A DNA stretch of 41,563 nucleotides from Planctomycetota bacterium (GTDB lineage Bacteria; Planctomycetota; UBA1135; GCA-002686595). The stretch spans positions 1 through 41,563 of the forward strand of contig VGZE01000013.1 in assembly GCA_016872755.1 (NCBI GenBank), written 5' to 3'. Both the position numbers and the translations under genes were made by a program. Position 1 is the stretch's first letter; every line of letters begins with the position of its first letter. The notes below the pieces were generated by a model. That model was not told the origin of the DNA, did no database searches, and saw nothing but the letters and a program-made list of their open reading frames with translations. Below, piece after piece: positions 2,993 to 34,416 of the stretch.

Positions 2993-2998
2993 TATAGT
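2993..2998 (+). promoter_or_regulatory. -10 element for the tatA transcription unit
   Basis: TATAGT is a 5/6 match to the sigma-70 -10 consensus in the gap after mnmD. The -35 region is weak (TAGGAA at 17-base spacing). It would give a leader of about 35-40 bases ending in the tatA Shine-Dalgarno sequence AGGA at 3031-3034, seven or eight bases before the ATG. Confidence 0.5.
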
Positions 2999-3041
2999 GG
3001 AGTCCAGCACCCGCCCACCCCGCGGGGCAAAGGAAATCCCG

Positions 3042-3236
3042 ATGCCATTCCTGGCCATGTTCAATACGTGGGAGGCGGTCGCGATCATCATCGTCGCGCT
3101 GCTCCTGTTCGGCGGAGCGAAACTGCCCGCGTTGGCGCGCTCGATGGGCGCCAGCGTCAACGAGTTCAAGAAGGGCCTGAAGGACGGCACCGAGGACGGC
3201 AAGAAGGCCGAGGCCCCGTCCAAGGACGCCACCTGA
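3042..3236 (+). CDS. tatA: Sec-independent protein translocase subunit TatA
   Basis: TatA multimers form the channel of the twin-arginine translocase, which exports folded, often cofactor-loaded, proteins. The 64-residue product has one N-terminal membrane helix (about residues 10-23, EAVAIIIVALLLFGG), the hinge FGGAKLPALARSMG, an amphipathic helix and a charged tail rich in Lys, Asp and Glu. I chose ATG 3042 because it has an AGGA Shine-Dalgarno sequence at good spacing and the family N-terminus starts there. An upstream in-frame start at 2997 would add 15 unrelated residues. tatC and tatB are not in the window. The M24 peptidase encoded at 26003-27304 is a likely Tat substrate. Confidence 0.92.
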   Translation: MPFLAMFNTWEAVAIIIVALLLFGGAKLPALARSMGASVNEFKKGLKDGTEDGKKAEAPSKDAT

Positions 3237-11833: not shown

Positions 11834-13107
11834 TCGACTTGAAGTGGTTGCGCGAGGAGCCCGAGCTCTTCCGCGCCGGCGCGCGCAAGAAGCGCATTCC
11901 TTGTGACATCGACGGTTTGCTGGCGCTCGACGCGCGCGCGCGCGAGCTGCAGCGCACGGTCGAGGAACTGCGCGCGCGGCAGAACGCGCTGGGCAAGCAG
12001 GTCGCCAAGGCGACCGGCGACGAAAAGGCGCGGGTGCTCGCCGAGTTGTCCGAGTTGAAGGGCGCGCTCAAGGATTCGGAGGCCGGCTGGGAAGGCCTGA
12101 AGAAGGAGATCGACGCCGGTCTGCTGCGCATTCCGCAGCCCCCGGCGGCCGAGGTGCCCGAAGGCAAGGACGACACCGAGAACAAGGAGATCAAGCGCGT
12201 CGGCGAACCGACGCGTTTCGACTTCGAGCCGCGCGACCACGGCGCGCTGGCCGAGGCGCAGGGCTGGATCGACTTCGAGCGCGCCGCGCGCATCGCCGGA
12301 TCGCGCAACTACGTGTTGATCGGCGATCTCGCGTTGCTCGAGTTCGCGCTGATGCGCTTCGCGCTCGACCACATGGTCCGCAAGGGCTTCGTGCCGCTCT
12401 CGGTGCCGGTGCTCGTGCGCAGCCAGTGCATGGTCGGCACCGGCTATTTCCCCGGCGGCGAGGAGCAGGCCTATCGCTGCGACGAGCGCGACGACCTCGT
12501 GCTGGCGGGCACGGCCGAGGTCCCAGTCACCTCGTTCCATGCGGGGGAAACGCTGGCCGAGGCGGACCTGCCCAAGCGCTACGTCGCGCTCTCCTCCTGC
12601 TACCGGCGTGAGGCCGGCACCTACGGCAAGGACACGCGCGGCCTGTACCGCGTGCACCAGTTCCAGAAGGTGGAGCAGGTCGTCGTCGACGTGGCCGACG
12701 CCGAGCGCAGCCTCGCGCATCATCGCGAGATCCTGTCGAATGCCGAGGAGGTGCTGCAGGCGCTCGAGATCCCGTACCGCGTCGTCGACGTGTGCGGCGG
12801 GGACCTCGGGGCCGGGCAGGTCCAGAAGTTCGACATCGAGAGCTGGATGCCGTCGCGCAAGGGCTGGGGCGAGACGCACTCGGCCTCGCGCTTCCACGAG
12901 TACCAGGCACGGCGGCTGGAACTGCGCTATCGCGACGCGCAGGGCAAGGTGCGCCATTGCCACACGTTGAACAACACCGTGGCGGCGAGTGCGCGCCTCT
13001 TGATCTGCGTTCTCGAGAACCACCAGCAGGCCGACGGGCGCGTGCGCGTGCCGGCGCCGCTGCGGCCGTACCTGGGCGGGCGCGAGCGGATCGGGCGCGC
13101 GCTCTAG
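11830..13107 (+). CDS. serS: Seryl-tRNA synthetase
   Basis: This class II synthetase charges tRNA-Ser (and tRNA-Sec). The 425-residue protein has the N-terminal tRNA-binding coiled coil (about residues 25-105), the TAEVPVTSFHAGE serine-binding loop, motif 2 (SSCYRREAGTYGKDTRG, then LYRVHQFQKVE) and motif 3. Motif 3 reads LNNTVAASARLLICVLENHQ, where many bacteria have a Gly-Ser-Gly-type loop before the motif 3 arginine. The start is GTG, overlapping the previous stop by 4 bases. The TAG stop shares a CTAG palindrome with the stop of gspJ on the other strand, so no terminator fits between them. Confidence 0.95.
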   Translation: MIDLKWLREEPELFRAGARKKRIPCDIDGLLALDARARELQRTVEELRARQNALGKQVAKATGDEKARVLAELSELKGALKDSEAGWEGLKKEIDAGLLRIPQPPAAEVPEGKDDTENKEIKRVGEPTRFDFEPRDHGALAEAQGWIDFERAARIAGSRNYVLIGDLALLEFALMRFALDHMVRKGFVPLSVPVLVRSQCMVGTGYFPGGEEQAYRCDERDDLVLAGTAEVPVTSFHAGETLAEADLPKRYVALSSCYRREAGTYGKDTRGLYRVHQFQKVEQVVVDVADAERSLAHHREILSNAEEVLQALEIPYRVVDVCGGDLGAGQVQKFDIESWMPSRKGWGETHSASRFHEYQARRLELRYRDAQGKVRHCHTLNNTVAASARLLICVLENHQQADGRVRVPAPLRPYLGGRERIGRAL

Positions 13108-14048
13108 CCGCCGCCGAAGGGGTTGCCGCCGCCGCCGCTACCGCCTCCGAACGGATTGCCGCCACCGCTTGAACCACCACCGCCACCGCCGCCTGCACCG
13201 GGGCCGCCGAACGGAGAGCCGCCGCCGCCAGCGCTGGGATCGATCTGTGTCATCGGGATCGGGCCGCCGCCGCCCCCGACGGCCGGCTCGATCACTGGGA
13301 TCTTGGGCACGATCTCGACCGAGGCTGCTTCCAGCAGCATGTCAGGGAAGCGGTAGATGCGCCGGTACGTGACCACGCGCTGGTCTTCCTTGAAGTCCTT
13401 CAGTTGCTCGCGCGCAACACGCTTTTCGAGTTCGATCGTCAGCGCGATCTCGACTCGTTTGGGAAGTCCGGTGTGCTCGCTGTTCTGGTCGACGTTCCAA
13501 CCATCCACCGGCTCCTCGTCGGGCCCGTTCTCGGCGAAGCACTTGATGTCGAAGCCGAGCACGCGATTGCACAGGAACGTGTAGCGGCCGCCTTCGAAGG
13601 GCTTGTCGTCGACACCGAAGGACTCGCGCCGGAACAGCTCGAGGAAATCCTCCATGTCCGGTCGGCGGCGCAGCACGTAGCCGACTTCGTTCAGGTCGGC
13701 GTACAAGGGCCGTTCCTGGCGCTTGTCCTGTGTGAACACCAGGCTGTTGACGCCGGAGATGAGGTCGATTCGGTCGGCGTCGTTGCCGCCGACCGTGCGG
13801 TCGACCACGCGGATCCAGTACTGCTTGTCGCGGTTGAGAATCGAGATCGCGCGCAGGTCGCGCTCGACCATGTCGAGGATGGTCGGTCCGACCAGTTCGG
13901 TTTCCTGGATGTTGTGGATCGTATCGCGGCTGACGCGCGCCGATTGCAGGACCTGGCTGATCGCGACGAGCAGGCCCGACATGATCAGCAGCACGACCAT
14001 GATCTCGACCAGCGTGAAGCCGGAGCGCGGGGTGCGGGGGAGTCTCAT
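13104..14048 (-). CDS. gspJ: Pseudopilin, GspJ-like, with glycine-rich C-terminal tail
   Basis: This is a type II secretion minor pseudopilin of 314 residues. It has the prepilin leader MRLPRTPRSG, cleavage before Phe11, and FTLVEIMVVLLIM with Glu at mature position 5. The position as last of three minor-pilin genes and the large size fit GspJ, but sequence distance makes GspJ versus a generic minor pilin uncertain. After about residue 255 the protein changes to low-complexity glycine runs containing three [SN]PFGG motifs, unlike usual GspJ. The ATG is separated from the gspI-like stop by one base. The stop overlaps serS at CTAG. Confidence 0.75.
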   Translation of the reverse strand: MRLPRTPRSGFTLVEIMVVLLIMSGLLVAISQVLQSARVSRDTIHNIQETELVGPTILDMVERDLRAISILNRDKQYWIRVVDRTVGGNDADRIDLISGVNSLVFTQDKRQERPLYADLNEVGYVLRRRPDMEDFLELFRRESFGVDDKPFEGGRYTFLCNRVLGFDIKCFAENGPDEEPVDGWNVDQNSEHTGLPKRVEIALTIELEKRVAREQLKDFKEDQRVVTYRRIYRFPDMLLEAASVEIVPKIPVIEPAVGGGGGPIPMTQIDPSAGGGGSPFGGPGAGGGGGGGSSGGGNPFGGGSGGGGNPFGGG

Positions 14049-14049
14049 G

Positions 14050-14655
14050 TCACTTCTTGGGGGAACTGCCGGCGCCTTGGTTCGGTCCGATCGCGCCGCC
14101 CGCGGCGTTCGAGCCCGTGTTCGAGTCGGTCGCGGCTTCCTCGGTCTTGTGCACCTGCGCCCACGGCACCCAGCGCTCGAGCACGACCTCGCTCTTGAAG
14201 TTGGCGATCTGGCGGAAGGTGACGCGGACCTTGACGCGCTCGTACGGTTGCTCGGCCTCCTCGTCAGCGTCTTCTTTCTCGTCGCGTTCCTTCTCGAATT
14301 TGGCGCTCCAGGAGTCGTGCGGCGAGTTGGGATCCCGTTCGACGAACGTGTCGTCGCCCAGCATGACCTCCCAGCCGAAGTCGGGATAGCCTTGCTCGGC
14401 GAAGGAGTCGGCCAGCGTGGAGTCGGAATCGATCTCCTCGAGATAGATGCCGGACTCGATCTCGCCGAGCTTGAACAGACCGAGTTCGCGAGCGAGCTTG
14501 AGGTTGCGCGTCTGGACGGCCGTGATCTTGGCGGTGTTGAGCGCCTGCATGCACAGCGTCAGCGCCGCGCCGACGATCACGACGGTGACGGCCACCTCGG
14601 CCAGCGTGAAGCCGAGGCGCGCGTTCGTCCTTCGAGGGTGCAGGCGGGTGCGCAT
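14050..14655 (-). CDS. gspI: Pseudopilin, GspI-like
   Basis: This is a minor pseudopilin of 201 residues. The leader is basic (MRTRLHPRRTNARLG), followed by FTLAEVAVTVVIVGAALTLC with Glu5 of the mature protein. The 'ALNTAK...ARELGLFKLGEIESGIY' region resembles GspI, where a helix after the membrane segment carries conserved Leu and Ala. The middle is very acidic (KERDEKEDADEEAEQ) and the C-terminus is Gly/Ser-rich. I chose ATG 14655, which overlaps the gspH stop by one base (TGATG). A longer in-frame extension upstream has no pilin character. Predicted inner membrane, later part of the pseudopilus tip. Confidence 0.75.
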   Translation of the reverse strand: MRTRLHPRRTNARLGFTLAEVAVTVVIVGAALTLCMQALNTAKITAVQTRNLKLARELGLFKLGEIESGIYLEEIDSDSTLADSFAEQGYPDFGWEVMLGDDTFVERDPNSPHDSWSAKFEKERDEKEDADEEAEQPYERVKVRVTFRQIANFKSEVVLERWVPWAQVHKTEEAATDSNTGSNAAGGAIGPNQGAGSSPKK

Positions 14656-15272
14656 CAATTGAAGTCGTTGTCGTTGGCGGGTTCGCGGCTCCACAGACCG
14701 TCGTGGTACGTGATCAGGCCGGTCAGGCCCTGCACCTCGATCGTGGCCACCGTGCCCGTGGACTCCTGCTTCAGCACGATCCAATGCTCGGAGGTCGTGC
14801 CCAGCGGCGAGAAGATGACGTGCAACTCGCCATCCAGATAGGGCGTGCCGTCCAGCGTGACCGAGGACAAGTCGATCCCCGTGCCCAGCTTCGTCTCGTA
14901 GATCGCGACGCGTTCCTTGTGCTGCTCGGCGTCCTCGGCCGCGCCGGTCGATTCGTCGCCGCGCCGCGCATAGGCGGCCAGCTCGCCTTCGGCGTTGTAC
15001 GGCGTGCTGATCCAGTAGCGCTCCTCGTCGATCTGGTAGACCATCCAGAATTCCGCGTTGCGCGCGATCGCCTGCGCGCGCGCTTCGCGCAGGCGCTCGG
15101 CCAGCACGCGCACGTCAGCGATGAACTGCTCGCGCGGGAGCATGCGCTGGAACGAGAAGGTCGTCAGGCCGGCCAGCAACCCCAGGATCACGACCACGAC
15201 CATGATCTCGACGATCGTGAAGCCCGCGACTGCGCGGCACACGGAGCGGATCGGGCGTGGAGACGCGGACAT
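14655..15272 (-). CDS. gspH: Pseudopilin, GspH-like
   Basis: This 205-residue minor pseudopilin has the leader MSASPRPIRSVCRAVAG, then FTIVEIMVVVVILGLLAG with Glu5, followed by the helix LRVLAERLREARAQAIA-like segment and a beta domain ending in a Thr/Asp-rich tail. The 'LREARAQAIARNAEFWM' pattern is the GspH/FimT signature. The start ATG 15272 lies 14 bases after the gspG stop. Downstream it overlaps gspI by one base. It is expected to be processed by a prepilin peptidase, which is not in this window. Confidence 0.8.
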   Translation of the reverse strand: MSASPRPIRSVCRAVAGFTIVEIMVVVVILGLLAGLTTFSFQRMLPREQFIADVRVLAERLREARAQAIARNAEFWMVYQIDEERYWISTPYNAEGELAAYARRGDESTGAAEDAEQHKERVAIYETKLGTGIDLSSVTLDGTPYLDGELHVIFSPLGTTSEHWIVLKQESTGTVATIEVQGLTGLITYHDGLWSREPANDNDFN

Positions 15273-15286
15273 TGTTCTCGAGCGAT

Positions 15287-15739
15287 CTAGTATTCGCCGT
15301 TCCGGATCATCAAGTTGTCGACGTCGAGGTCGTCGCCTTCGCCCCCGGGCGAGCCGTCACGGCCGAGCGAACGGATGATCGGCTTCTTCTGGCCGCCGGA
15401 GGGCGGTTCGTAGATGTACTCGTTCTTCCACGGGTCGGTCGGCACCTTATCGGCGTTCAAGTAGGTGTCGCCGTTGGCGTCGGGCTGGACCAGCGCCTCG
15501 AGGGAATCCGGATAGCGCCCGCCGCTCTCCATGTAGTACACGGTGATTGCCTGCTCGATCGCATTGATGTCGCTCTTGAGCCTCGTCTTGTTGCCTGAGG
15601 ACAGGAACCTCGGCGCGTTTTGTATGACCAGGGTCGCCAACAACGCGACGATCACGATCACGACCATCAGCTCGGCCAGCGAGAAGCCGCGGCGCGCGCG
15701 GGCAGGAAGGGTAAGGACTCGAGTGGTAGGGAGTTTCAT
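15287..15739 (-). CDS. gspG: Major pseudopilin GspG
   Basis: GspG is the main subunit of the type II secretion pseudopilus. The 150-residue protein has a basic leader (MKLPTTRVLTLPARARRG), then FSLAELMVVIVIVALLATLV with Glu5. The class signature follows: a helix with IEQAITVYYMESGGRYPDSL, and the Pro/Trp-containing DPWKNEYIYEPP and SLGRDGSPGGEGDDLD, the calcium-site region of GspG. Length is typical. The ATG at 15739 sits 5 bases after the gspF stop. Confidence 0.92.
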   Translation of the reverse strand: MKLPTTRVLTLPARARRGFSLAELMVVIVIVALLATLVIQNAPRFLSSGNKTRLKSDINAIEQAITVYYMESGGRYPDSLEALVQPDANGDTYLNADKVPTDPWKNEYIYEPPSGGQKKPIIRSLGRDGSPGGEGDDLDVDNLMIRNGEY

Positions 15740-15744
15740 GGGAT

Positions 15745-17022
15745 TCAACCGACGTTGCTGAGCTGCAGGATCGGCAGGATGATCGAGTAGACGATGAAAC
15801 CGACGACGACTGCCAGGAAAACGATCATGATCGGCTCGAGGACGCTGGTCAGGCGCGCCGCCACGACCTCGATTTCCTCGTCGTAGGCGTCCGCGATGCG
15901 GTCGAGCATCTGCTCGAGCTCGCCCGACTTCTCGCCCACGGCCACCATATAGCCCACTACCGGCGGGAACACACCGGTGGCCTTGAGCGGCGTGGCGATG
16001 TCCGTGCCCTCGAGGATGCGCGTGCGGACGTGGTCGGTGGCCTCGGCGATGACCGCGTTGCCGACGACGTTGCGCGTGACCTCGAGGCTCTGCACGGCCG
16101 CGACGCCGCTGCCGAGCAGCGTCGAAAGCGTGCGCGTGAAGCGCGCCACCGAGGCCTTGCGGATCAGGTCGCCGACCAGCGGGACCTTGAGCTTGAAGCG
16201 ATCGATCGCGAGCCGGCCCTTGGGCGTGCGGTAGATGCGCTCGATCGTGAACGAGATCGCGGCGATGCCCAGGCAGCCGACCCACCAGTAGTCCTTGAAG
16301 CCGTTGCTGATCTCGATCAGGATCCGCGTCGGCAACGGGATGGTCTGGCGCATGTCCTCGAGCATGCCGGTGATCTTGGGCACGACGACCGTCATCAACA
16401 CGCCCACCACGACGACGCCCAGGCCGATCATCATGGCCGGGTAGGTCAGCGCCGAGATCACCTTGCGCTGCAGCGCTCGTTGCGCCTGCATGAACTCGGC
16501 CAGGCGCCGCAGCACCTGGTCGACCTTGCCGGTCGCCTCGCCGGCGCGAACCATGTTCACGTACAGTTCCGAGAAGTACGCCGGGTGCTCGGCCAGCGCA
16601 TCGCCCAGCGAAGCGCCCTGCGTGATGCGTTCGCGCAGCTCGCGGAACAAGGTCTCGTAACGGCGCGACTCGGCCTGTTCGATCACCGCTCGCAGCGCCT
16701 CGGCGAGCGGGATGCCGGCGCCGAGCAGCGTGCCGAGCTGGCGCGTCACCGCCGTGACCGTGTCGGCGTCCTTGCCGCTGGGTCCCTGCGGCGAGCTGCG
16801 CAGCTTCTTCAGCTGTCCGAGCCAGGAGGTCTTGGGCTTGCCGCGCGCGCCGTCAGGTCCGGCGACGCGTTGGCGCGTGCCGCCCTTGAGCTCGGAGAGC
16901 TCCGACACGAGCAGGTTCTCGCGCCGCAGCCGCGAACGCGCCTCGCGCGGCGTGTCGGCGTCGACCACGCCGACCTTCACGCCGCCGCCGGAGCCGTAGG
17001 CCTTGTATTCGTAGATCGGCAC
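15745..17022 (-). CDS. gspF: Type II secretion inner-membrane platform protein GspF
   Basis: GspF is the polytopic core of the secretion platform that couples the GspE ATPase to the pseudopilus. The 425-residue protein starts MPIYEYKAYGSGG and has two T2SSF repeats (about residues 93-216 and 297-419), three membrane spans and the conserved QLGTLLGAGIPLAEAL and TLSTLLGSGVAAVQSL repeat motifs. The start codon is GTG at 17022, fixed by the family N-terminus. It follows gspE after 48 bases, the widest gap in the operon. Confidence 0.93.
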   Translation of the reverse strand: MPIYEYKAYGSGGGVKVGVVDADTPREARSRLRRENLLVSELSELKGGTRQRVAGPDGARGKPKTSWLGQLKKLRSSPQGPSGKDADTVTAVTRQLGTLLGAGIPLAEALRAVIEQAESRRYETLFRELRERITQGASLGDALAEHPAYFSELYVNMVRAGEATGKVDQVLRRLAEFMQAQRALQRKVISALTYPAMMIGLGVVVVGVLMTVVVPKITGMLEDMRQTIPLPTRILIEISNGFKDYWWVGCLGIAAISFTIERIYRTPKGRLAIDRFKLKVPLVGDLIRKASVARFTRTLSTLLGSGVAAVQSLEVTRNVVGNAVIAEATDHVRTRILEGTDIATPLKATGVFPPVVGYMVAVGEKSGELEQMLDRIADAYDEEIEVVAARLTSVLEPIMIVFLAVVVGFIVYSIILPILQLSNVG

Positions 17023-25455: not shown

Positions 25456-25977
25456 ATGATCTCCCGCGCATCCGTGTATGCGGTCCGCTCGCTGACCTTC
25501 CTGGCGCTGCAGCCGCGCGGGACCTACCACCTGGCTCGGGACATGGCCGAGCGATTGGGCATCCCCGCGCCGTTCCTCGCCAAGATCCTGCAACCGCTGG
25601 TCTCGCGCGGCCTGGTCGATAGCCAGCGCGGTCGCAGCGGCGGCTTCCGGCTCGCGCTCGATCCGGCCGAGATCACGCTGTTCCAGATCGTGGACGCGCA
25701 AGAGCACCTGGGCAAGGTGCGTCAGTGCATGCTCGGGCAGGCCGAGTGCACCGATGAGCGCGCCTGTCCGCTGCACACCTACTGGAAGCGCACCAGCGAC
25801 GAGTACATGGCGATCCTGGCCAGCACCTCGTTGCGAGACCTGTCGCATTTCACCGAGGTGAGCGAAGGCTGCGGCTACCCGATTCCGCTCGCGCTCATCG
25901 AGAGCGCGCGCAAGCCCGCGACGGCGAAGCCCGGCACGAAGGCCGCGGGCAAGCTGCCGGCACGACACAAGTCCTAG
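25456..25977 (+). CDS. Rrf2-family transcriptional regulator with IscR-like cysteines
   Basis: This is a 173-residue winged-helix regulator. The N-terminal HTH includes YHLARDMAERLGIPAPFLAK and the wing RGRSGGFRLALDP. Cys91, Cys98 and Cys104 plus His107 (in CMLGQAECTDERACPLH) match the spacing of iron-sulfur ligands in IscR-type Rrf2 proteins, so it probably senses Fe-S status, NO or redox. A Lys/Ala-rich tail of about 25 residues follows a further Cys in EGCGYP. The start has a GAGG-type Shine-Dalgarno sequence (GAGGGAAGC before ATG). No isc/suf genes adjoin; its targets are unknown. Autoregulation is common in the family but is not shown here. Confidence 0.88.
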   Translation: MISRASVYAVRSLTFLALQPRGTYHLARDMAERLGIPAPFLAKILQPLVSRGLVDSQRGRSGGFRLALDPAEITLFQIVDAQEHLGKVRQCMLGQAECTDERACPLHTYWKRTSDEYMAILASTSLRDLSHFTEVSEGCGYPIPLALIESARKPATAKPGTKAAGKLPARHKS

Positions 25978-26002: not shown

Positions 26003-27304
26003 TCAGACGGGAGCCCGCATGTCCGTCGGCCAGGCTCCGAAATGGTCGGCGCCCGCGGCCTCGACGACCACGATGTCCTCGAGGCGGATCCCGAAGCGGT
26101 TGTACAGGTAGATGCCCGGCTCGTCGGACAAGGTCATGCCCGGCTCGAGCTCGATTTCGCTGCCGAGGTCGAAGTACGGATCCTCGTGACCCTCCAGGCC
26201 GATCCCGTGGCCGAGGCGGTGCGCGAAGGCCGAATAGCCGTCGCCGTAGCCGGCCCGCGTGATCACGTCGCGCGCGGCGCGATCGACCTCGCGGCAGCGC
26301 ACGCCGGGCCGGATCGCCTCGAAGGCGGCCTGTTGTGCGGTGCGCACGGTCCGCCACGCGCGCTCGAACTCGGGTGTGGGCGTGCCGAACGGTACCCAAC
26401 TGCGCGTCGTATCGCTCTGGTAGCCGTGCAGCGCGCCGCCGGTGTCGACCAGCACGACCTCGCCCGCTCCCAAGCGGGCCTGATCGTGGTCCCCGTGCGG
26501 GAATGCGGCGGCAGGTCCGATCAGCGCCAGCACCCAAACGTCCTTCAGCCCGAGCGCCTCCTGCGCCGCGCGCATGCGCGCGGCGACCTCGGCGCCGGTG
26601 ACACCCGGTTCCAGCGTCTGCGCGGCGGCAGCGATCGCGCGCTGCGTCAGCACGCTCGCGTGCCGCATCAGCGCGAGCTCGTGCGGGTCCTTGCGCGCGC
26701 GCGTGGCGAGCAGCACGTCGCGGGCCATGCGACAGTGTTCGCGGCCGTGCGCGGCGGCGAGTCCGTCGGCCGCGAACAGGCGCAGCTGGGGTTCGAAACC
26801 GACGCGCTCGACGCGCCGCTCGCGCAGGGCCGCGGCTGTCGGCGCGAACGCGTATTCGTGCTCCTGCCACTCGACGAGCAGCGGGTCGTGGATGCCGGCC
26901 GCCGCGAGCTTCAGGCGCGCCTTGGGTGCCTCGAACTGGGGACAGATCCAGAAGCTGCTGCCGTCCGCCAGCACGCTCAGCGCGAAGAGCCGCTCGGAGC
27001 GGCCCCAGGCGACTCCCGTCAGGTAGGTCAGCGTCGGGCCCGGCTCGCACACGAACGCGTCCAGGCCCAGCGCCGGCAGCAGCGCGGCCAACCGCGCTCG
27101 GCGCGCCGCGCGCTCCGGAGCGCTGATCGGTTCCGGCGCGCCGTCCGTGTCGCGGAGGTCGGCGAACAGCTCGGCGTCGCGGGCGCGCTGCTCCGGTGTG
27201 CGCTCGACGACCTGCGGTCGGACGGCGGTGCAACCGCACAGCGCCGCGGCGCCGACGAGGAAGTCGCGGCGATTTCCCGCACGTCCGGCAATCGATCGAC
27301 TCAA
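26003..27304 (-). CDS. M24-family (Xaa-Pro aminopeptidase-like) metallopeptidase, predicted Tat-exported lipoprotein
   Basis: This is a 433-residue creatinase/prolidase-fold peptidase. The N-terminus combines a twin-arginine motif (NRRDFLV, Arg12-Arg13) with a lipobox-like L-C-G-C ending at Cys25. An N-terminal creatinase domain covers about 60-190. The catalytic pita-bread domain has VLVDTGG and SDTTRSW (metal Asp pair), HRLGHGIGLEGHEDPYF (metal His) and DEPGIYLYNRFGIRLED (metal Glu). I infer a TTG start at 27304: AAGGAG lies 8 bases upstream, it overlaps the previous stop, and it places RR at the expected site. It would remove N-terminal residues before proline in the envelope. Confidence 0.85.
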   Translation of the reverse strand: MSRSIAGRAGNRRDFLVGAAALCGCTAVRPQVVERTPEQRARDAELFADLRDTDGAPEPISAPERAARRARLAALLPALGLDAFVCEPGPTLTYLTGVAWGRSERLFALSVLADGSSFWICPQFEAPKARLKLAAAGIHDPLLVEWQEHEYAFAPTAAALRERRVERVGFEPQLRLFAADGLAAAHGREHCRMARDVLLATRARKDPHELALMRHASVLTQRAIAAAAQTLEPGVTGAEVAARMRAAQEALGLKDVWVLALIGPAAAFPHGDHDQARLGAGEVVLVDTGGALHGYQSDTTRSWVPFGTPTPEFERAWRTVRTAQQAAFEAIRPGVRCREVDRAARDVITRAGYGDGYSAFAHRLGHGIGLEGHEDPYFDLGSEIELEPGMTLSDEPGIYLYNRFGIRLEDIVVVEAAGADHFGAWPTDMRAPV

Positions 27305-28551
27305 CGGGGGAGCTCCTTCATCAAGCGCTCGTAGACGCGCCGCGCAAGCATCGCATGTCCGGCCGGCGAGTAGTGGCCGGTGTCCTCCAGCAAGTACAGG
27401 CTCTGTGCCGCGTGCGGATAGTCGGCGCGGATCGTGTCGAGCCCGCGCTCGTTCTTGCCGAGCCCGCCCCGGTTGATCTCCTCGACCAGTTCGGGCATCG
27501 CCGCGTAGAACGCGTCGGTCGGATCGAGGTAGAGGATCGCCGCGGAGCCGTCCGCGCGCTTGGCTCCGGCGGCCCACGGCTGCCAGAACACGCCGGGTCG
27601 CCGGTCGTCGCGCACCATCAGCTGGATCAGCTGCGGCAGCATCAGCAGCACGAGCCGGCCGTTCTCGGCCTCGAGCGTCGTACGCACCCCTTGCAGACGC
27701 TTGGCGCAGTGATCCCACAGCCAGCGCACGGTCGGCGCATAGGGGTCGCTCTGGAAATTCCGATCGAGCTCCTTGGCCTGCTGCGCTTCCGCCGCCTGCG
27801 GGGAAGGAGGCTTGGGCATCCAGCGATCGATCACGTGGCGGCGCAGCAGGTCGTACGTCGCCGTGCGCAGCACGTGGCGCCGGAATGCGTAGTCGGCATC
27901 GTCGCTGGAGGGGTCCATCAGCACGACGTCGTGCGGCAGGCACGGCACGATCAACAGGTTCGGTTGCCACGGCCGAATCACGCGTTCGTACGTGCGCGCC
28001 ATCTGTTCGAACACGTAGCCCTGGACCGCGAAGTTCATCACGAGCACACGGCGCGCATCGCCGCGGCGCAGGAAGTCCTCCTGCAGCAGGCGCTCGAGCT
28101 GCTGGGACCAGATGTCGGCGAAGGCCACGGAGGTCCCATAGGTGTACGAGTTGCCGACCACCGCGACGCGGTACAGGTTCGGATCCTGGATCGGCCGACC
28201 GTCGGGGCCGTAGCTCGGCGGATCCCAGGCCACCGCTCGGTAGCCGGTGGTCGCAAGGGGCTCGCGCTCGGCGGCGTCCCAATCCAGCGGCGTCCAGCTC
28301 TCATGGCTGCGCGTCTCGGTCCGACCTTCCAGCAACGCGGGCTCGCGGTACTCGACCCAATTGATGTCCTCCGGCACCAGCAGGTCGCGCGACCAGCCGC
28401 GCTGATCGGGCAGCATGCGCCAGCCGAGGTAGTCGTCGCGCTCCTGCACCACGTAGGCGCCCCAGCCGAACTGCCGCAGCACGAGCTCCAGCACGACGAG
28501 CGCGACGACGCAGGCCGTCGTCCGCCAACCGATCCAGCGCAGTGGGTTCAT
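27301..28551 (-). CDS. Membrane-anchored SGNH/GDSL-type hydrolase (AlgX/AlgJ-like partner of MBOAT)
   Basis: This 416-residue protein has one N-terminal hydrophobic anchor (about 11-26) and a periplasmic SGNH fold. The nucleophile block reads VVGNSYTYG (Ser135, with Asn in place of the GDS Asp). A later Asn block is NFAVQGY, and the C-terminal DTGHYSPAGH gives Asp390/His393. The order next to an MBOAT acyltransferase is the usual pair for O-acetylation of exported polysaccharides, where the SGNH protein completes acyl transfer outside the membrane. The gene begins 9 bases after the MBOAT stop and overlaps the M24 gene by 4 bases. Transferase versus esterase activity cannot be decided. Confidence 0.8.
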   Translation of the reverse strand: MNPLRWIGWRTTACVVALVVLELVLRQFGWGAYVVQERDDYLGWRMLPDQRGWSRDLLVPEDINWVEYREPALLEGRTETRSHESWTPLDWDAAEREPLATTGYRAVAWDPPSYGPDGRPIQDPNLYRVAVVGNSYTYGTSVAFADIWSQQLERLLQEDFLRRGDARRVLVMNFAVQGYVFEQMARTYERVIRPWQPNLLIVPCLPHDVVLMDPSSDDADYAFRRHVLRTATYDLLRRHVIDRWMPKPPSPQAAEAQQAKELDRNFQSDPYAPTVRWLWDHCAKRLQGVRTTLEAENGRLVLLMLPQLIQLMVRDDRRPGVFWQPWAAGAKRADGSAAILYLDPTDAFYAAMPELVEEINRGGLGKNERGLDTIRADYPHAAQSLYLLEDTGHYSPAGHAMLARRVYERLMKELPR

Positions 28552-28560
28552 TGCGGGAGC

Positions 28561-30000
28561 TCAGAACTGGAAGTAGATGAACGGCGCGAGGCCAGGGGGA
28601 TGCAGGGCGAACAGCAACACGATGGCGGTCGCGAGCCCCAGGCCCTGGAGCCAGCTCGGAACCGCGTGGAAGAGCCGTTCGAGCCATGCTACGAAGCCTT
28701 CGGGCAGGCAGTGCGTGATCACGCCCAGCGCGAGGATCAACCACAGTTGCCAGGGCAGCACCGGCAGCGCCCGCGACCAGTCCGTGAACTGCGCACAGGC
28801 GGTCGTGAAGTCGCCGAGGCTGCGGCAACGGAAGAGGATCATCGAGAAGGCCACGACGTGGAACGCGAAGAGCGTCCCCAGCACGGTCGTGCGCAGACCC
28901 GGTTGGAATTTCCCGCCCGGGATCACGTGCTTGCGCAGCAGCCGCACCAGCACGAGCCACGCGCCGTGGTAGGCGCCCCACAGCACGTAGGTCCAGGCGG
29001 CACCGTGCCACAGACCGACCAGGGTCCAGGCGATGAACACGTTGCGGCAGCCGCGCCAGAAGCCGACGCGCGAGCCGCCCATCCAGACGTACACGTAGTC
29101 CTGGAACCACGTCGACATCGAGATGTGCCAGCGCGACCAGAACTCCTCGAGGCTCTTGCTCCTGAAGGGCGCGTCGAAGTTCTTCATCAACTCGAAGCCG
29201 AAGAGCCGCGCCGAGCCGATCGCGATGTCGGAGTAGCCCGCGAAGTCGCCGTACAGCTGCAGTGCATAGGCGTACGTGACGAGCAGCATGCCCCAGCCGC
29301 CGAGCTGTCCCAGCGTCTCCTGATCACGGAAGTGCGGGTCGACGATGTGAGTGCCGAGGATGTCGGCCATCAGCAGCTTCTTCAGCAGCCCGCGCAGGAT
29401 CTGGAAGAGGCCGGAGGACACGCGCGCGGCGTCGAAGAGCGGCGGGCGCTCGAGTTGCGGCAGGAAATCGCTGGCGCGCACGATCGGCCCCGCGACGAGC
29501 TGCGGGAAGAACGCCACGAACAGCGCGAAATCGAGCAGGCTGCGGCACGGCTTCAACGTGCCGCGATAGACATCGATCGTGTAGGAAAGCGTCTGGAACG
29601 TGTAGAAGCTGATGCCGGCCGGCACGGCGATGCCGAGCAACCACGGATCGAAGTGCAGGCCGAGCTTCGCGAACGCCGCCTGGAAACTCGTCGTGAAGAA
29701 GTCGTAGTACTTGTAGAACCCGAGCAGGCCGAGATTGCCGACCAGCGAAGCGGCCATCCACAGCCGCTTGCGGCGCGCGTCTCCCGCGGCGGCTCCGGCG
29801 GCGATACCCAGGCCGGCGCCGTAGTCGAGCGCGGTGCTCGCGAGCAGCAGCCACGTGAAGCGCCAATCGGCCCAGGAATAGAACAGCCAGCTCGCGATCA
29901 ACAGCAGCGCGTGGCGCAGGCTTCGCTTCTGCTTCAACGTCCAGAAGAGGACGTAGCAGACCCACAGCAGGATCACGTATTCGAAGCTGTTGAACAGCAT
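28561..30000 (-). CDS. MBOAT-family O-acyltransferase (AlgI-like)
   Basis: This 479-residue polytopic protein moves acyl groups, usually acetyl from acetyl-CoA, across the inner membrane to a periplasmic carrier or glycan. The invariant MBOAT His is H332 in LVGLWHGAAWTYVLWG, and a second conserved His is H292 in FWSRWHISMSTWF. The N-terminal MLFNSFEYVILLWVCYVLFW and FYKYYDFF segment are typical of AlgI/PatA-type members. About ten spans are visible. It sits between an S9 peptidase gene and the SGNH gene, and no polysaccharide polymerase or export gene is adjacent. Confidence 0.92.
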   Translation of the reverse strand: MLFNSFEYVILLWVCYVLFWTLKQKRSLRHALLLIASWLFYSWADWRFTWLLLASTALDYGAGLGIAAGAAAGDARRKRLWMAASLVGNLGLLGFYKYYDFFTTSFQAAFAKLGLHFDPWLLGIAVPAGISFYTFQTLSYTIDVYRGTLKPCRSLLDFALFVAFFPQLVAGPIVRASDFLPQLERPPLFDAARVSSGLFQILRGLLKKLLMADILGTHIVDPHFRDQETLGQLGGWGMLLVTYAYALQLYGDFAGYSDIAIGSARLFGFELMKNFDAPFRSKSLEEFWSRWHISMSTWFQDYVYVWMGGSRVGFWRGCRNVFIAWTLVGLWHGAAWTYVLWGAYHGAWLVLVRLLRKHVIPGGKFQPGLRTTVLGTLFAFHVVAFSMILFRCRSLGDFTTACAQFTDWSRALPVLPWQLWLILALGVITHCLPEGFVAWLERLFHAVPSWLQGLGLATAIVLLFALHPPGLAPFIYFQF

Positions 30001-30018
30001 GCGAGGGTCCGCCGCACT

Positions 30019-32499
30019 CTATCGGCTGCGGCGGCCCGCTTCCACGCTTCCATCGTGCAGGTGGCGGCGCAGAAAGGACTCGATGCGTTCGTATTGATCG
30101 AGCCAGTGCGGGCCGGAATCGTAGGCGTGGCCCTGGCTCGGGTAGACCATCAGCTCGAAGTCCTTGCCGAGCACGATCAGTCGTTCGACCAGTCGCAGCG
30201 TGTCCTGCGCGAACACGTTGTCGTCGCGCAGCCCGTGCAGCAGGAACAGCGGATCCGCCAGGCCGGCGGCGTGATCGATCGGTGATGCGGCCGCGTAGGC
30301 CTCCGGATGCGTGGAGGGCTTGCCCAGGCGCGGCTGCGTGTAGCTCGGTGTGTAGCCGCGCCAATCGGTGACCGAGCGCAGCGCCGCGCCCGCGCGCCAG
30401 CGACCGGGCTCCTTGAACAGCGCCATCAGCGTCAGGAAACCGCCATAGGAGCCGCCGTACAGCGCGACGCGCTCGCGGTCGAGCGCGCGCTCGGCGGCGA
30501 GGGCATCGAGCACGGCGTTTATGTCGGAGAGCTCCAGCTCGCCGAGCCGGCCGTGCACGTCCGTGCGGAACTTGTGGCCGTAGCCCTTGCTGCCGCGGTA
30601 GTCGACGTCCACGACGGCGTAGCCGAGCCGCGCGAGCCGCGCGTGGAACATCCAGTTGAGCGGGTACTCGGTCAGCGAGTCGGTGACGTTCTGCAGGTAG
30701 CCCGCGCCGTGGACGAAGACGACGCAAGGCGCGTCCCGGCGCCCGGCAAGCCAGACATTCGCCCACACGTTCGTGCCGTCGGCGGACCTGAACGAGCGGC
30801 GAGTCGGGAGCTGCCAGCGCGCGCGTGCGAAGCCCTCGGGCGCAGTCGCCGAGAGCCGGCGAACACCTCGCGCATCGCTGGCCCAGATCTCGGCAGTCGC
30901 GCCGGATGATTCGTGCAGGAAGGCAGTCACGGAGCCGTCGCGGCTCGCGCGCGCGTCGGTGTTGAATCCCGGGGGCTGCAGGATGCGCCGAGCCTCGGGC
31001 CCGATCACGTGCAACTCGTGCCGGCCCGGATCGGCAGTCGCGGCCTCGACGAGCAGGCCGCCTTCGCGCAGGGGAATCAGCCGATCGACCTCTCCGGCGA
31101 AGCCCGGGATCGCAAAGTCCGCGCTCGACTCGATGGACGCGCTGTCCGCGCGCTCGACGCCGGCGTACCAGATCCGCTCCCCCGGAGTGCTGCGCGCGTC
31201 CCACGCGAATTGATTCGCCGGGCCGCCCACCCAGCCGCCCGTGCAATCGCGCGGGCGCGACAACTCGCCCCAACCAGCGCGTCCGATCAACAGGTACTGC
31301 TGACACTTCCAATCCGGAGCCGTCCAGCGGAGCACGAGCTCATCACCCTCGGGGCTCCAGTCGACGACGCTGTACCAACCGGTATCGAACGGCTCACACA
31401 GCGCGACCTCGCGGCGTTGGCCGGTCGTCGTATCCCAGCAGTACATGCGCACGGCCGACGGGCCGTCCTCGGCGGTCTCGCGGCGGCCTTCTCGCACGCT
31501 GACGCGTTCGCTTAGGAAGTCCGGAATGGGAATCGGTCCGCTCAAACGGCTCTTGTCGCGCTGCAGCGCGAACACCCAACTGCCGTCGGGGGACAAGCGC
31601 TCGCCCTCGCGGTGCTCGAGCGAGTCATAGTCCAACAGCTCGACCGCGCGGCCCTCGTCGCGGAGCCAGACCTGAGCGGGTCGGGTCTCTTCGGGGGTCG
31701 CGCCGCGCACGATCGGTCCGACCGGGGAGAATGCGACGGCGAGGTCGCTGGACCATTGAAGCGCACTTGCCCGCGGACCGAGCGACAGGTTCTGACACTC
31801 CAGGTCCGCCGGCTCGAGCGCACGTGACTCCGCCAGGCGCGCGGCTCCCACTGCGAACAGGTCATCGCTGTCGTAGATCCGCAGACGCGTGGCCTCGGGG
31901 GCTTCAGGGTCGAAAATCACGCAATCCGCGGCGCCCTCGTCGTGCGGCGGCCATTCGAGCCGTTCGAGCGCGCCGAGCGTGCCGGCGAGCGCGTTGGCCG
32001 ACTCCGCGGCGGTCGTGCGCCGCTCGGGCAGCAGCTCGAAGCGCGTGCGTGCGAGCGGATCGATGCGCCACAGCCCGCTGCCGCGCGCGACATACAGCGC
32101 GCCGCCGCGGAGGTCGTAGGTCCAGGCCGACGGCTCGAGCTCGGCCGGCGCCGGTTGGGACGCGGGCTGGGACTCCGAACGCGGCGGGGGAGGCAACAGG
32201 GCCGCGAGCTCGATTCCGCAGCGCTCGCCGGCGCGCGGGCCGCCGGTTTCGAGCACGCGCAGCGTGCCTTCCTCCGGCGCGTAGATCGGGATCCCGGGCG
32301 ACCAACGCACGACGACGCTCGAGCCGTCGGCCGCAATCGCGAGCAGTTGAGGCCGCTTGTCGAGCAGTTCGGCGCCGCTGAAGATCGCCTGCAGGCTCGG
32401 CACGTCCGCGGGATCGACCGCGCGCCCCGGCGCGGCGCAGGCACCGGCCAGCGCGCACAGGGCCGCGCACGTGAGTCGACCGAAGAGGCCGGCGCGCAT
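30019..32499 (-). CDS. Prolyl oligopeptidase-family (S9) serine peptidase, probable lipoprotein
   Basis: This 826-residue protein has an N-terminal signal with a lipobox-like A-G-A-C (Cys21). A long beta-propeller-like region with many WSPEGDEL/FSPVG/DGSWVFAL blades (about 40-570) resembles dipeptidyl-peptidase IV. The C-terminal alpha/beta-hydrolase domain has catalytic Ser684 in LYGGSYGGFL, Asp759 in LHGLRDDNV and His791 in YPSQGHAYD. It would cleave short peptides, often after proline, in the envelope. The start ATG 32499 overlaps the GGDEF stop by one base; the MBOAT gene follows after 18 bases. The Glu-rich DPP-IV N-terminal anchor motif was not identified. Confidence 0.88.
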   Translation of the reverse strand: MRAGLFGRLTCAALCALAGACAAPGRAVDPADVPSLQAIFSGAELLDKRPQLLAIAADGSSVVVRWSPGIPIYAPEEGTLRVLETGGPRAGERCGIELAALLPPPPRSESQPASQPAPAELEPSAWTYDLRGGALYVARGSGLWRIDPLARTRFELLPERRTTAAESANALAGTLGALERLEWPPHDEGAADCVIFDPEAPEATRLRIYDSDDLFAVGAARLAESRALEPADLECQNLSLGPRASALQWSSDLAVAFSPVGPIVRGATPEETRPAQVWLRDEGRAVELLDYDSLEHREGERLSPDGSWVFALQRDKSRLSGPIPIPDFLSERVSVREGRRETAEDGPSAVRMYCWDTTTGQRREVALCEPFDTGWYSVVDWSPEGDELVLRWTAPDWKCQQYLLIGRAGWGELSRPRDCTGGWVGGPANQFAWDARSTPGERIWYAGVERADSASIESSADFAIPGFAGEVDRLIPLREGGLLVEAATADPGRHELHVIGPEARRILQPPGFNTDARASRDGSVTAFLHESSGATAEIWASDARGVRRLSATAPEGFARARWQLPTRRSFRSADGTNVWANVWLAGRRDAPCVVFVHGAGYLQNVTDSLTEYPLNWMFHARLARLGYAVVDVDYRGSKGYGHKFRTDVHGRLGELELSDINAVLDALAAERALDRERVALYGGSYGGFLTLMALFKEPGRWRAGAALRSVTDWRGYTPSYTQPRLGKPSTHPEAYAAASPIDHAAGLADPLFLLHGLRDDNVFAQDTLRLVERLIVLGKDFELMVYPSQGHAYDSGPHWLDQYERIESFLRRHLHDGSVEAGRRSR

Positions 32500-33815
32500 C
32501 AGGCGCGCACCCCGCCCGCGCTCGGCGCGCCGGCCGCCGGAAGCAGCGGTTCGGGCTCGGCGCCGTGCACGCACAGCGCGCTGCCCTGGCGCTTGGCGCG
32601 GTACATCGCCCCGTCCGCGAGCCGCAGCAGCTCGTCGGCATTCGCCGCGTGCCCGGGATGCAGCGCCAATCCCAGGCTGGCCGACACGCACAATTCCCGA
32701 CTCTCGAAGCGCACCGGAAGCCGGATCGCCTCGAGCACCTTGGTGGCGACCGCGCGCGCATCGTCCACTCCGGACAGGCGCGGCAGGAGCAGCGCGAATT
32801 CGTCTCCGCCCAGCCGCGCGATCGTGTCGCCCCGCCGCAGCACGCCGCGCAGGTTCTCCGCGACGCCCTTGAGCAGGGCGTCGCCGGCGCGATGGCCGTG
32901 CGCGTCGTTGATCAGCTTGAACCCGTCCAGATCGATGTACAGCACGCCCAGCCGCGACTGCTGGCGGCGCGCGTGCTCGAGCTCGAGCTGCAGGCGGTCC
33001 TGGAGCGTCACTCGGTTGGACAGGCCGGTCAGTTCGTCGTGGTAGGCCAGTCGGCGCATCGACTCGGCGTAGCGCACTCGTTCGCTGGCGTCGCGCAGCA
33101 CCAGCACCTCGCCGCGCAGGTTGCCGGCCGCGTCGCGAATCGGGGCGCGGCTGTGGTCGACCGGAAGCTCGCTCAGGCCCGCGCGGTTCAGCCAGTGCGT
33201 GGTTGCGAGCTTGTCGGGTGTGGCGGGCTGCTCTGCCGACGGTTCCCGCACGCGCAGCACGAGCACTTCCTCGAGCGGTCGGCCGACCAGCCGTTCGGCC
33301 GGGCTCGCCAGCAGCGCGGCCGCGCGCGGATTGGCGAAGGTGATCTTCCCGGCCGCATCGGTCGATATCACCGCGTCGTCGATGCTGTGCAACGTCGTGC
33401 GCGTGAACTCGCGCTCTTCGTGCAGCCGCTGTTCGATCGCCATGCGGCGCAGCGCGAGCTCACGCACGATCCACAGCGCGAAGGCGACCAGCACGCGATC
33501 GACCACCTCCTGCGCCGACAGCCCGAAGGCCTCGTGCACGCGCGTGTACCCGCTGCCGTAGCGCGCGCCGAGCAGCGGCAGGATCAGCAGGTTCAGCCCC
33601 TGCGCCAGCCAGTAGATCGAGAGCAGCGAGCGTTCCGCGCGCACCCACAGGCTGATCAGCAGCGGCACGACGTACACGATGCCCACCGCGAAATCGCCGC
33701 GCTCGCGCAGGTTGAGCAAGAGGTCGATCGCGAAGATCCCCAGGCACAGCGCGAGCGGAACCCAACGCCGCACCCAGGGACGGGCTTCGGTCGCCGGGAG
33801 GTTGGCTGCGCTCAC
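32499..33815 (-). CDS. Membrane-bound PAS-GGDEF diguanylate cyclase
   Basis: The product makes c-di-GMP from two GTP. From the GTG at 33815 it has 438 residues: about four N-terminal hydrophobic segments (16-35, 46-60, 64-82, 105-120), a PAS domain (about 138-248, HSIDDAVISTDAAGKITFAN) and a GGDEF domain (about 256-412). The active site LGGDEF is at about 335-340 with all residues intact. An inhibitory I-site RRGD lies exactly five residues before it, predicting product feedback. An upstream TTG at 33851 adds 12 residues; neither has a Shine-Dalgarno sequence, but a -10-like TACGGT lies 6 bases before the GTG. It is first in a five-gene unit. Confidence 0.88.
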   Translation of the reverse strand: MSAANLPATEARPWVRRWVPLALCLGIFAIDLLLNLRERGDFAVGIVYVVPLLISLWVRAERSLLSIYWLAQGLNLLILPLLGARYGSGYTRVHEAFGLSAQEVVDRVLVAFALWIVRELALRRMAIEQRLHEEREFTRTTLHSIDDAVISTDAAGKITFANPRAAALLASPAERLVGRPLEEVLVLRVREPSAEQPATPDKLATTHWLNRAGLSELPVDHSRAPIRDAAGNLRGEVLVLRDASERVRYAESMRRLAYHDELTGLSNRVTLQDRLQLELEHARRQQSRLGVLYIDLDGFKLINDAHGHRAGDALLKGVAENLRGVLRRGDTIARLGGDEFALLLPRLSGVDDARAVATKVLEAIRLPVRFESRELCVSASLGLALHPGHAANADELLRLADGAMYRAKRQGSALCVHGAEPEPLLPAAGAPSAGGVRA

Positions 33816-33903
33816 CCCGGCACCGTACGCCCCGATCGGAATGGTTTTCAAGGGCGGCAGCCGAGGTCAAGCGGCGCGGGCGGCCGGACCGATAGGCACC
33901 CGC

Positions 33904-34416
33904 ATGGCGTTTGCGCAAACATCGCTCAGCGGACTGGCTTGGCGCGCGGCGCGCGTCGGTCTGTGCGGCGGGCTGGCGTGGATGCTCCTGTTCCAGGTCT
34001 CGGTCGTGCGCGGCAGCTCGATGACTCCCGGCATTCGAGACGGCGACCGCATCCTGGTCGAGCCGTGGAGCTATTGGCTGACCGAGGTGGAGCGCGGCGA
34101 CGTCGTCGTGCTGCGCTATCCGCTCGATCCGCAGGTCGACTACATCAAGCGCGTGATCGGGCTGCCCGGCGACACCGTCGCCATCGTCGGCGGCCGGCTG
34201 TGGGTGAACGGCTCGCTCTACGACGAGCCGTATGCGATCGACGACGCGTTGGCCTGGCATGTCGAGCGCGTGCGGCCCGACCACTGTTTCGTGCTCGGCG
34301 ACAATCGCCCGCGCTCGGCGGACAGCCGTGACTTCGGTCAGGTGCCGCTCGATCTGCTGCGCGGACGCGTCGATCTGCGCGTGTGGCCCCTCGCGCGCGC
34401 CGGTCGGCTCGACTGA
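33904..34416 (+). CDS. lepB: Signal peptidase I
   Basis: This 170-residue type I signal peptidase cleaves Sec and Tat signal peptides at the outer face of the inner membrane. It has one N-terminal membrane helix (about 15-35) and the Ser/Lys dyad: Ser39 in RGSSMTPGI and Lys82 in YIKRVIGLPGD. The C-terminal VLGDNRPRSADSRDFG is also present. It is shorter than the E. coli enzyme, like many other bacterial forms. It is divergent from the GGDEF gene and 52 bases from its longest possible start. A GC hairpin follows its stop. A neat fit with the many exported proteins nearby, though that may be coincidence. Confidence 0.93.
   Translation: MAFAQTSLSGLAWRAARVGLCGGLAWMLLFQVSVVRGSSMTPGIRDGDRILVEPWSYWLTEVERGDVVVLRYPLDPQVDYIKRVIGLPGDTVAIVGGRLWVNGSLYDEPYAIDDALAWHVERVRPDHCFVLGDNRPRSADSRDFGQVPLDLLRGRVDLRVWPLARAGRLD

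Follow-up and report, generated by a model that had tools for sequence, protein, structure and literature searches.

Gene content and organization of the locus

The window analyzed here, a 41,563-nt stretch of a Planctomycetota genome (4.0 Mb in 389 contigs), carries on its minus strand, at 26003–33851, a run of five packed genes. The first encodes a PAS-GGDEF protein (32499–33851; Pfam GGDEF, 2.1e-45; PAS_4, 9.5e-10), followed by an S9 peptidase that is a probable lipoprotein (30019–32499; Peptidase_S9, 3.6e-47), an MBOAT acyltransferase ending in FIYFQF (28561–30000; MBOAT, 1.9e-27), an SGNH acyltransferase/hydrolase with an N-terminal membrane anchor (27301–28551), and an M24 prolidase-type peptidase with a Tat signal and a lipobox-like Cys (26003–27304; Peptidase_M24, 3.1e-56). 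All five are genuine genes. Their order agrees with that proposed in the initial annotation and is borne out by the open reading frames read from the sequence; domain matches concur for four of them, while the SGNH assignment draws on its relatives, its invariant residues, its GNSYTYG and DxxH motifs, and the fold match of its structural model.

The junctions likewise read as they had been described: the GGDEF and S9 genes overlap by 1 base (TGATG), spacers of 18 and 9 bases separate S9 from MBOAT and MBOAT from SGNH, and SGNH overlaps M24 by 4 bases (TTGA). M24 starts with TTG, as does the GGDEF gene (at 33851, with an alternative GTG at 33816). A promoter scan, which is insensitive for Planctomycetota, recognized no sigma-70-like promoter inside the run. 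Together, the tight junctions and the lack of recognizable internal promoters suggest that the five genes are co-transcribed, and hence co-regulated whatever their origin; we infer this co-transcription, as we do the activities and substrates proposed below.

Upstream, the block is bounded by a divergent signal peptidase I gene (lepB; 33898–34416, plus strand, start approximate), named from its own sequence, and it is closed by a convergent gene for an Rrf2 regulator (25456–25977, plus strand; Pfam Rrf2, 4.9e-31). Homologs of lepB, 53–65% identical, adjoin S9 or GGDEF in most relatives, and rrf2 holds the same position in the sister species (G001). Elsewhere on the contig, the minus strand at 13104–17022 holds a cluster for type II secretion or a type IV pilus, encoding an inner-membrane protein of the T2SSF type and two prepilin-like proteins that carry N-methylation motifs.

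An S9–M24 peptidase pair and its counterpart in the sister species

We surveyed 81 genomes of the family for the S9 peptidase, taking E<1e-115 as the mark of a strong ortholog, and recovered such an ortholog in 19 other genomes. An M24 ortholog lies directly downstream in 18 of these 19, which span about nine genera, with a spacing mostly within a few tens of bases and the pair mostly divergent from lepB; the pair also occurs in G043 and G047, members of another family of the order. MBOAT or SGNH genes were found between S9 and M24 at none of the 18 other loci. The catalytic Ser-Asp-His triad of S9 in its alpha/beta-hydrolase domain (S684/D759/H791), as expected of the prolyl oligopeptidase family, is kept in all 19 sequences and the metal ligands of M24 (D287/D298/H366/E395/E409) in all 18. 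The lipobox-like Cys of S9 (in LAGAC) and the twin-arginine motif and Cys of M24 recur in most orthologs with a readable start, and the Tat signal of M24 also scores above the cut-off of NCBIfam TIGR01409 (18.9 bits against 16.7). The placement of both peptidases at the envelope, put forward at the outset, is supported, and both are probably exported lipoproteins. Because M24 directly follows S9 across genera and the export signals recur, we regard the two as an old two-gene unit that is probably exported. A literature search returned nothing relevant to this pair.

The solved structures nearest to the S9 catalytic domain are bacterial DPP IV (8.5e-34) and then an acylamino-acid-releasing enzyme. 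The protein has no DPPIV_N match in Pfam, which does not assign its N-terminal part, and it bears a GGSYGG motif that we take to be compatible with acylaminoacyl-peptidase types as well. M24 matches Creatinase_N (PF01321, 7e-10) beside PF00557, and its nearest solved structure is a proline dipeptidase (1e-62), a lead only as far as proline specificity is concerned. Most likely, the S9 enzyme would trim peptides that are exported or come from the environment, and the Xaa-Pro dipeptides so released could plausibly then be split outside the cytoplasm by the M24 enzyme, which is of prolidase type; export through Tat would fit an enzyme that acquires its metal before export. A TatA-family gene (PF02416) is present at 2997–3236 on the plus strand of the same contig, about 23 kb from the gene for this predicted Tat substrate.

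Contig L106 of the sister species G001 carries lepB, divergent from GGDEF–S9–M24, and then rrf2, at about 62–83% identity to the block described here. No MBOAT–SGNH genes intervene between S9 and M24 there, the spacer being 11 bases, and since the same block is thus present without them, this is an empty site. Compared with it, the run retains the S9 stop, with MBOAT starting just after, and M24 starts flush with the end of SGNH; the bases following the S9 stop (TAGAGTGCGGCG against TAGAGTCGCGCGGCG) seem to be left over from the earlier spacer. Composition gives no indication that the MBOAT–SGNH genes were imported recently, and we dropped it as an argument for a foreign origin, their GC3 (0.92 and 0.90) being equal to that of the neighbors. 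In the MBOAT tree, the nine loci that carry this subfamily form one clade (100/100), within which neither the branching nor a donor lineage is resolved. By these comparisons, the run is an MBOAT–SGNH cassette seated between the two genes of a conserved, putatively exported peptidase pair, and insertion of the cassette in this lineage would be a shorter account than its loss in all others.

The MBOAT–SGNH acyltransferase pair

Close relatives of the MBOAT (64–55% identity) were recovered at eight other loci, in five other family genomes and on three further named contigs, and none of these eight has S9 or M24 nearby. The C-terminal tail of the protein, APFIYFQF, fits FXYXXF, the motif by which PatA-type MBOATs shuttle acyl groups, and FxYxxF tails with small variations end those relatives whose C-terminus was read. 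Its catalytic WHG motif, with H332, lies within LWHGAAW. DltB is a solved relative (8e-34); we nevertheless set aside an identification as DltB itself, the score against NCBIfam TIGR04091 being 182.6 bits where the cut-off is 375.

The SGNH protein is more divergent: it has no Pfam match of its own, two of its relatives give weak matches to Lipase_GDSL_2, and its profile retrieved nothing significant among PDB sequences. Residues S135, D390, and H393 are invariant among the relatives. The AlphaFold model (pTM 0.77, with residues 51–106 after the anchor poorly modeled) matches SGNH enzymes with probability 1.00 in a fold search, including Neisseria gonorrhoeae PatB (7tlv, E 2.3e-4). With an N-terminal helix at residues 9–27 as its anchor, the protein is predicted to be extracytoplasmic. 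An SGNH gene adjoins MBOAT in all nine loci, the run included, and this adjacency together with the C-terminal FXYXXF supports the original suggestion that the two form a true envelope-acylation pair.

In PatA, the Tyr of the C-terminal FXYXXF is auto-acetylated, and the group is handed to the SGNH partner PatB and then to peptidoglycan, a shuttle that its authors extended to other MBOAT–SGNH pairs (PMC12148441). By analogy, acyl-CoA or acyl-ACP in the cytoplasm would serve as donor, with the MBOAT of the run placing the donor's acyl group on the Tyr in the terminal FIYFQF; from there the Ser of the anchored SGNH protein would accept the group, for transfer by that protein to an envelope polymer. 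At the G029 locus (L036, 9590–18929), MBOAT–SGNH comes immediately after a gene for an acyl carrier protein, and a convergent gene downstream encodes an AMP-ligase/ACP/ketosynthase protein; an ACP-borne acyl donor is possible in some relatives because of these flanking genes. Comparison of neighbors across the MBOAT–SGNH loci yielded no common third partner. The neighbors vary from otsA/otsB-GH15 and ABC genes (two loci) to sulfatases (G061) and large lipoprotein-like genes (two OFTM loci).

MBOAT paralogs reach up to 10 per family member. The genome carrying the run has two further MBOAT genes, on contigs C25 and C102 (L152 and L151); the latter product also ends in FIYFQF, and its gene follows one for a membrane-anchored protein, a possible SGNH partner. 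We considered whether the PilZ and MBOAT genes of C102 form an exopolysaccharide cluster and rejected this, as other genes intervene over about 7 kb.

The GGDEF gene and the interpretation of the block

The GGDEF protein has an N-terminal hydrophobic region and retains both its active-site motif, RRGDTIARLGGDEF (RLGGDEF), and an RxxD I-site; none of the NCBIfam equivalog models reaches its cut-off for this protein. Its ortholog in G001 is 73% identical and occupies the same place. In about ten genomes the ortholog lies elsewhere than at lepB, and at L128–L135 (G082, G104, G067, G066, and others) it lies well away from lepB and runs divergently from a gene whose product, of ~780 residues, is highly conserved. 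Searches of Pfam and NCBIfam recognized no c-di-GMP receptor domain among the five genes of the run, and the three PilZ genes of the genome are all on other contigs. We read the GGDEF protein as an older neighbor of lepB that probably makes c-di-GMP.

Taken together, the run very probably brings together three modules that are conserved separately, namely the GGDEF gene, the S9–M24 pair, and the MBOAT–SGNH cassette in the S9/M24 gap, which would occupy a variable pocket between lepB and the rrf2/metallophosphoesterase genes. A challenge to this reading comes from Pla86 (G017; L034, 6495–14634) and G093 (L107, 4220–12696), where lepB is divergent from otsA–otsB/GH15–GGDEF–MBOAT–SGNH and the peptidases are missing. 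In three genera, then, GGDEF neighbors MBOAT–SGNH beside lepB; two of these lack the peptidases there, and in those two GGDEF stands directly upstream of MBOAT, while in the run it stands one gene further upstream. This arrangement lends a little comparative support, the only such support for any part of the regulatory idea in the initial annotation, to a link between GGDEF and acylation, and it could be taken to mean that GGDEF and MBOAT–SGNH are a real c-di-GMP/acylation module at lepB, with S9–M24 as an unrelated passenger. We think this unlikely: GGDEF occurs on the lepB side with no MBOAT nearby in G001, G025, G015, G061, and G062; it is missing from six of the eight other MBOAT–SGNH loci; and no PilZ or other receptor was recognized nearby. 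The GGDEF tree, poorly resolved and with long branches, does not group the run and G001 with Pla86 and G093, and on this account we dropped the claim that the GGDEF copies beside lepB share one origin; the GGDEF and MBOAT trees fit common descent and parallel arrival of GGDEF–MBOAT–SGNH at lepB alike. Similarly doubtful is the fuller proposal that several genera carry a c-di-GMP-linked MBOAT–SGNH module beside lepB (in Pla86 and G093, and interrupted by S9 in the run) and that this module acylates an envelope polymer upon a PAS-sensed signal. As a separate observation, the otsA and otsB/GH15 fusion genes that run with GGDEF–MBOAT–SGNH, divergent from lepB, in Pla86 and G093 hint at a trehalose-metabolism link there.

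A second possibility is that GGDEF–S9–MBOAT–SGNH–M24, divergent from lepB, is the ancestral order and that other lineages lost different parts of it. That the lepB locus holds MBOAT–SGNH in three genera and S9–M24 in most others fits such a history, which would, however, call for repeated clean loss of exactly MBOAT–SGNH from the S9/M24 gap in about nine genera, the sister species among them, and the tree does not resolve the position of this MBOAT among the nine loci; we rate it as decidedly improbable.

The initial annotation proposed that the five genes form one functional system, in which c-di-GMP would control surface-glycan acylation and proline-directed peptide processing. Five same-direction genes packed with overlaps, and the failure to find a strong internal promoter in the run, are what such a system might look like. 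Nevertheless, its own proposed check, conservation of the five-gene order, failed: the five genes are never together in any other genome searched, and the peptidases adjoin this MBOAT–SGNH pair only in the run (0 of 8 and 0 of 18 loci elsewhere). At this site G001 is without the two acyltransferase genes, and none of the five genes has a recognized c-di-GMP receptor. We accordingly reject the single system as very improbable, and a link between the peptidases and acylation finds no support. Least probable of all is an assembly artefact wrongly joining MBOAT–SGNH into the S9–M24 gap, which the 389 contigs and the so far unique arrangement might invite, but against which stand an insertion flush with gene ends, the retained S9 stop, the translatable 4-base overlap with the M24 start, and the GC3 match of MBOAT and SGNH to their neighbors.

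Under the composite reading, a plausible operon-based story is undone by comparison, the tight packing here reflecting a cassette between the partners of an older unit. The locus is ordinary, and what is new about it is where an acyltransferase pair of known type is found, next to a diguanylate cyclase gene and a conserved pair of peptidases. Two by-products are of some value: the conserved S9–M24 pair of probably exported lipoprotein peptidases, and a divergent SGNH protein partnering a PatA-type MBOAT in Planctomycetota.

Set against known systems, the first protein of the run resembles PAS-GGDEF diguanylate cyclases in combining PAS with a GGDEF domain that has the catalytic motif and I-site, but it falls below the cut-off of every equivalog model. 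The peptidases recall bacterial DPP IV and prolidase, to which the S9 catalytic domain and M24, respectively, are nearest, and differ from them in that both carry export/lipoprotein signals and the S9 N-terminus is unmatched in Pfam. With DltB/DltD teichoic-acid D-alanylation the run shares an MBOAT whose nearest solved sequences are DltB, and in G029 an ACP gene before MBOAT; unlike that system, the run has the shuttle motif as part of the MBOAT itself, not on DltX, and the block has no DltA/DltC. Relative to the PatA/PatB-type pairs of peptidoglycan, alginate, and cellulose O-acetylation, the SGNH sequence escapes detection by Pfam, and polymer-synthesis genes were not recognized among the genes scanned in the window; yet, like those pairs, the run combines an MBOAT bearing the WHG His and a C-terminal FXYXXF with an adjacent membrane-anchored SGNH protein that has the Ser and DxxH and counts PatB among its fold matches.
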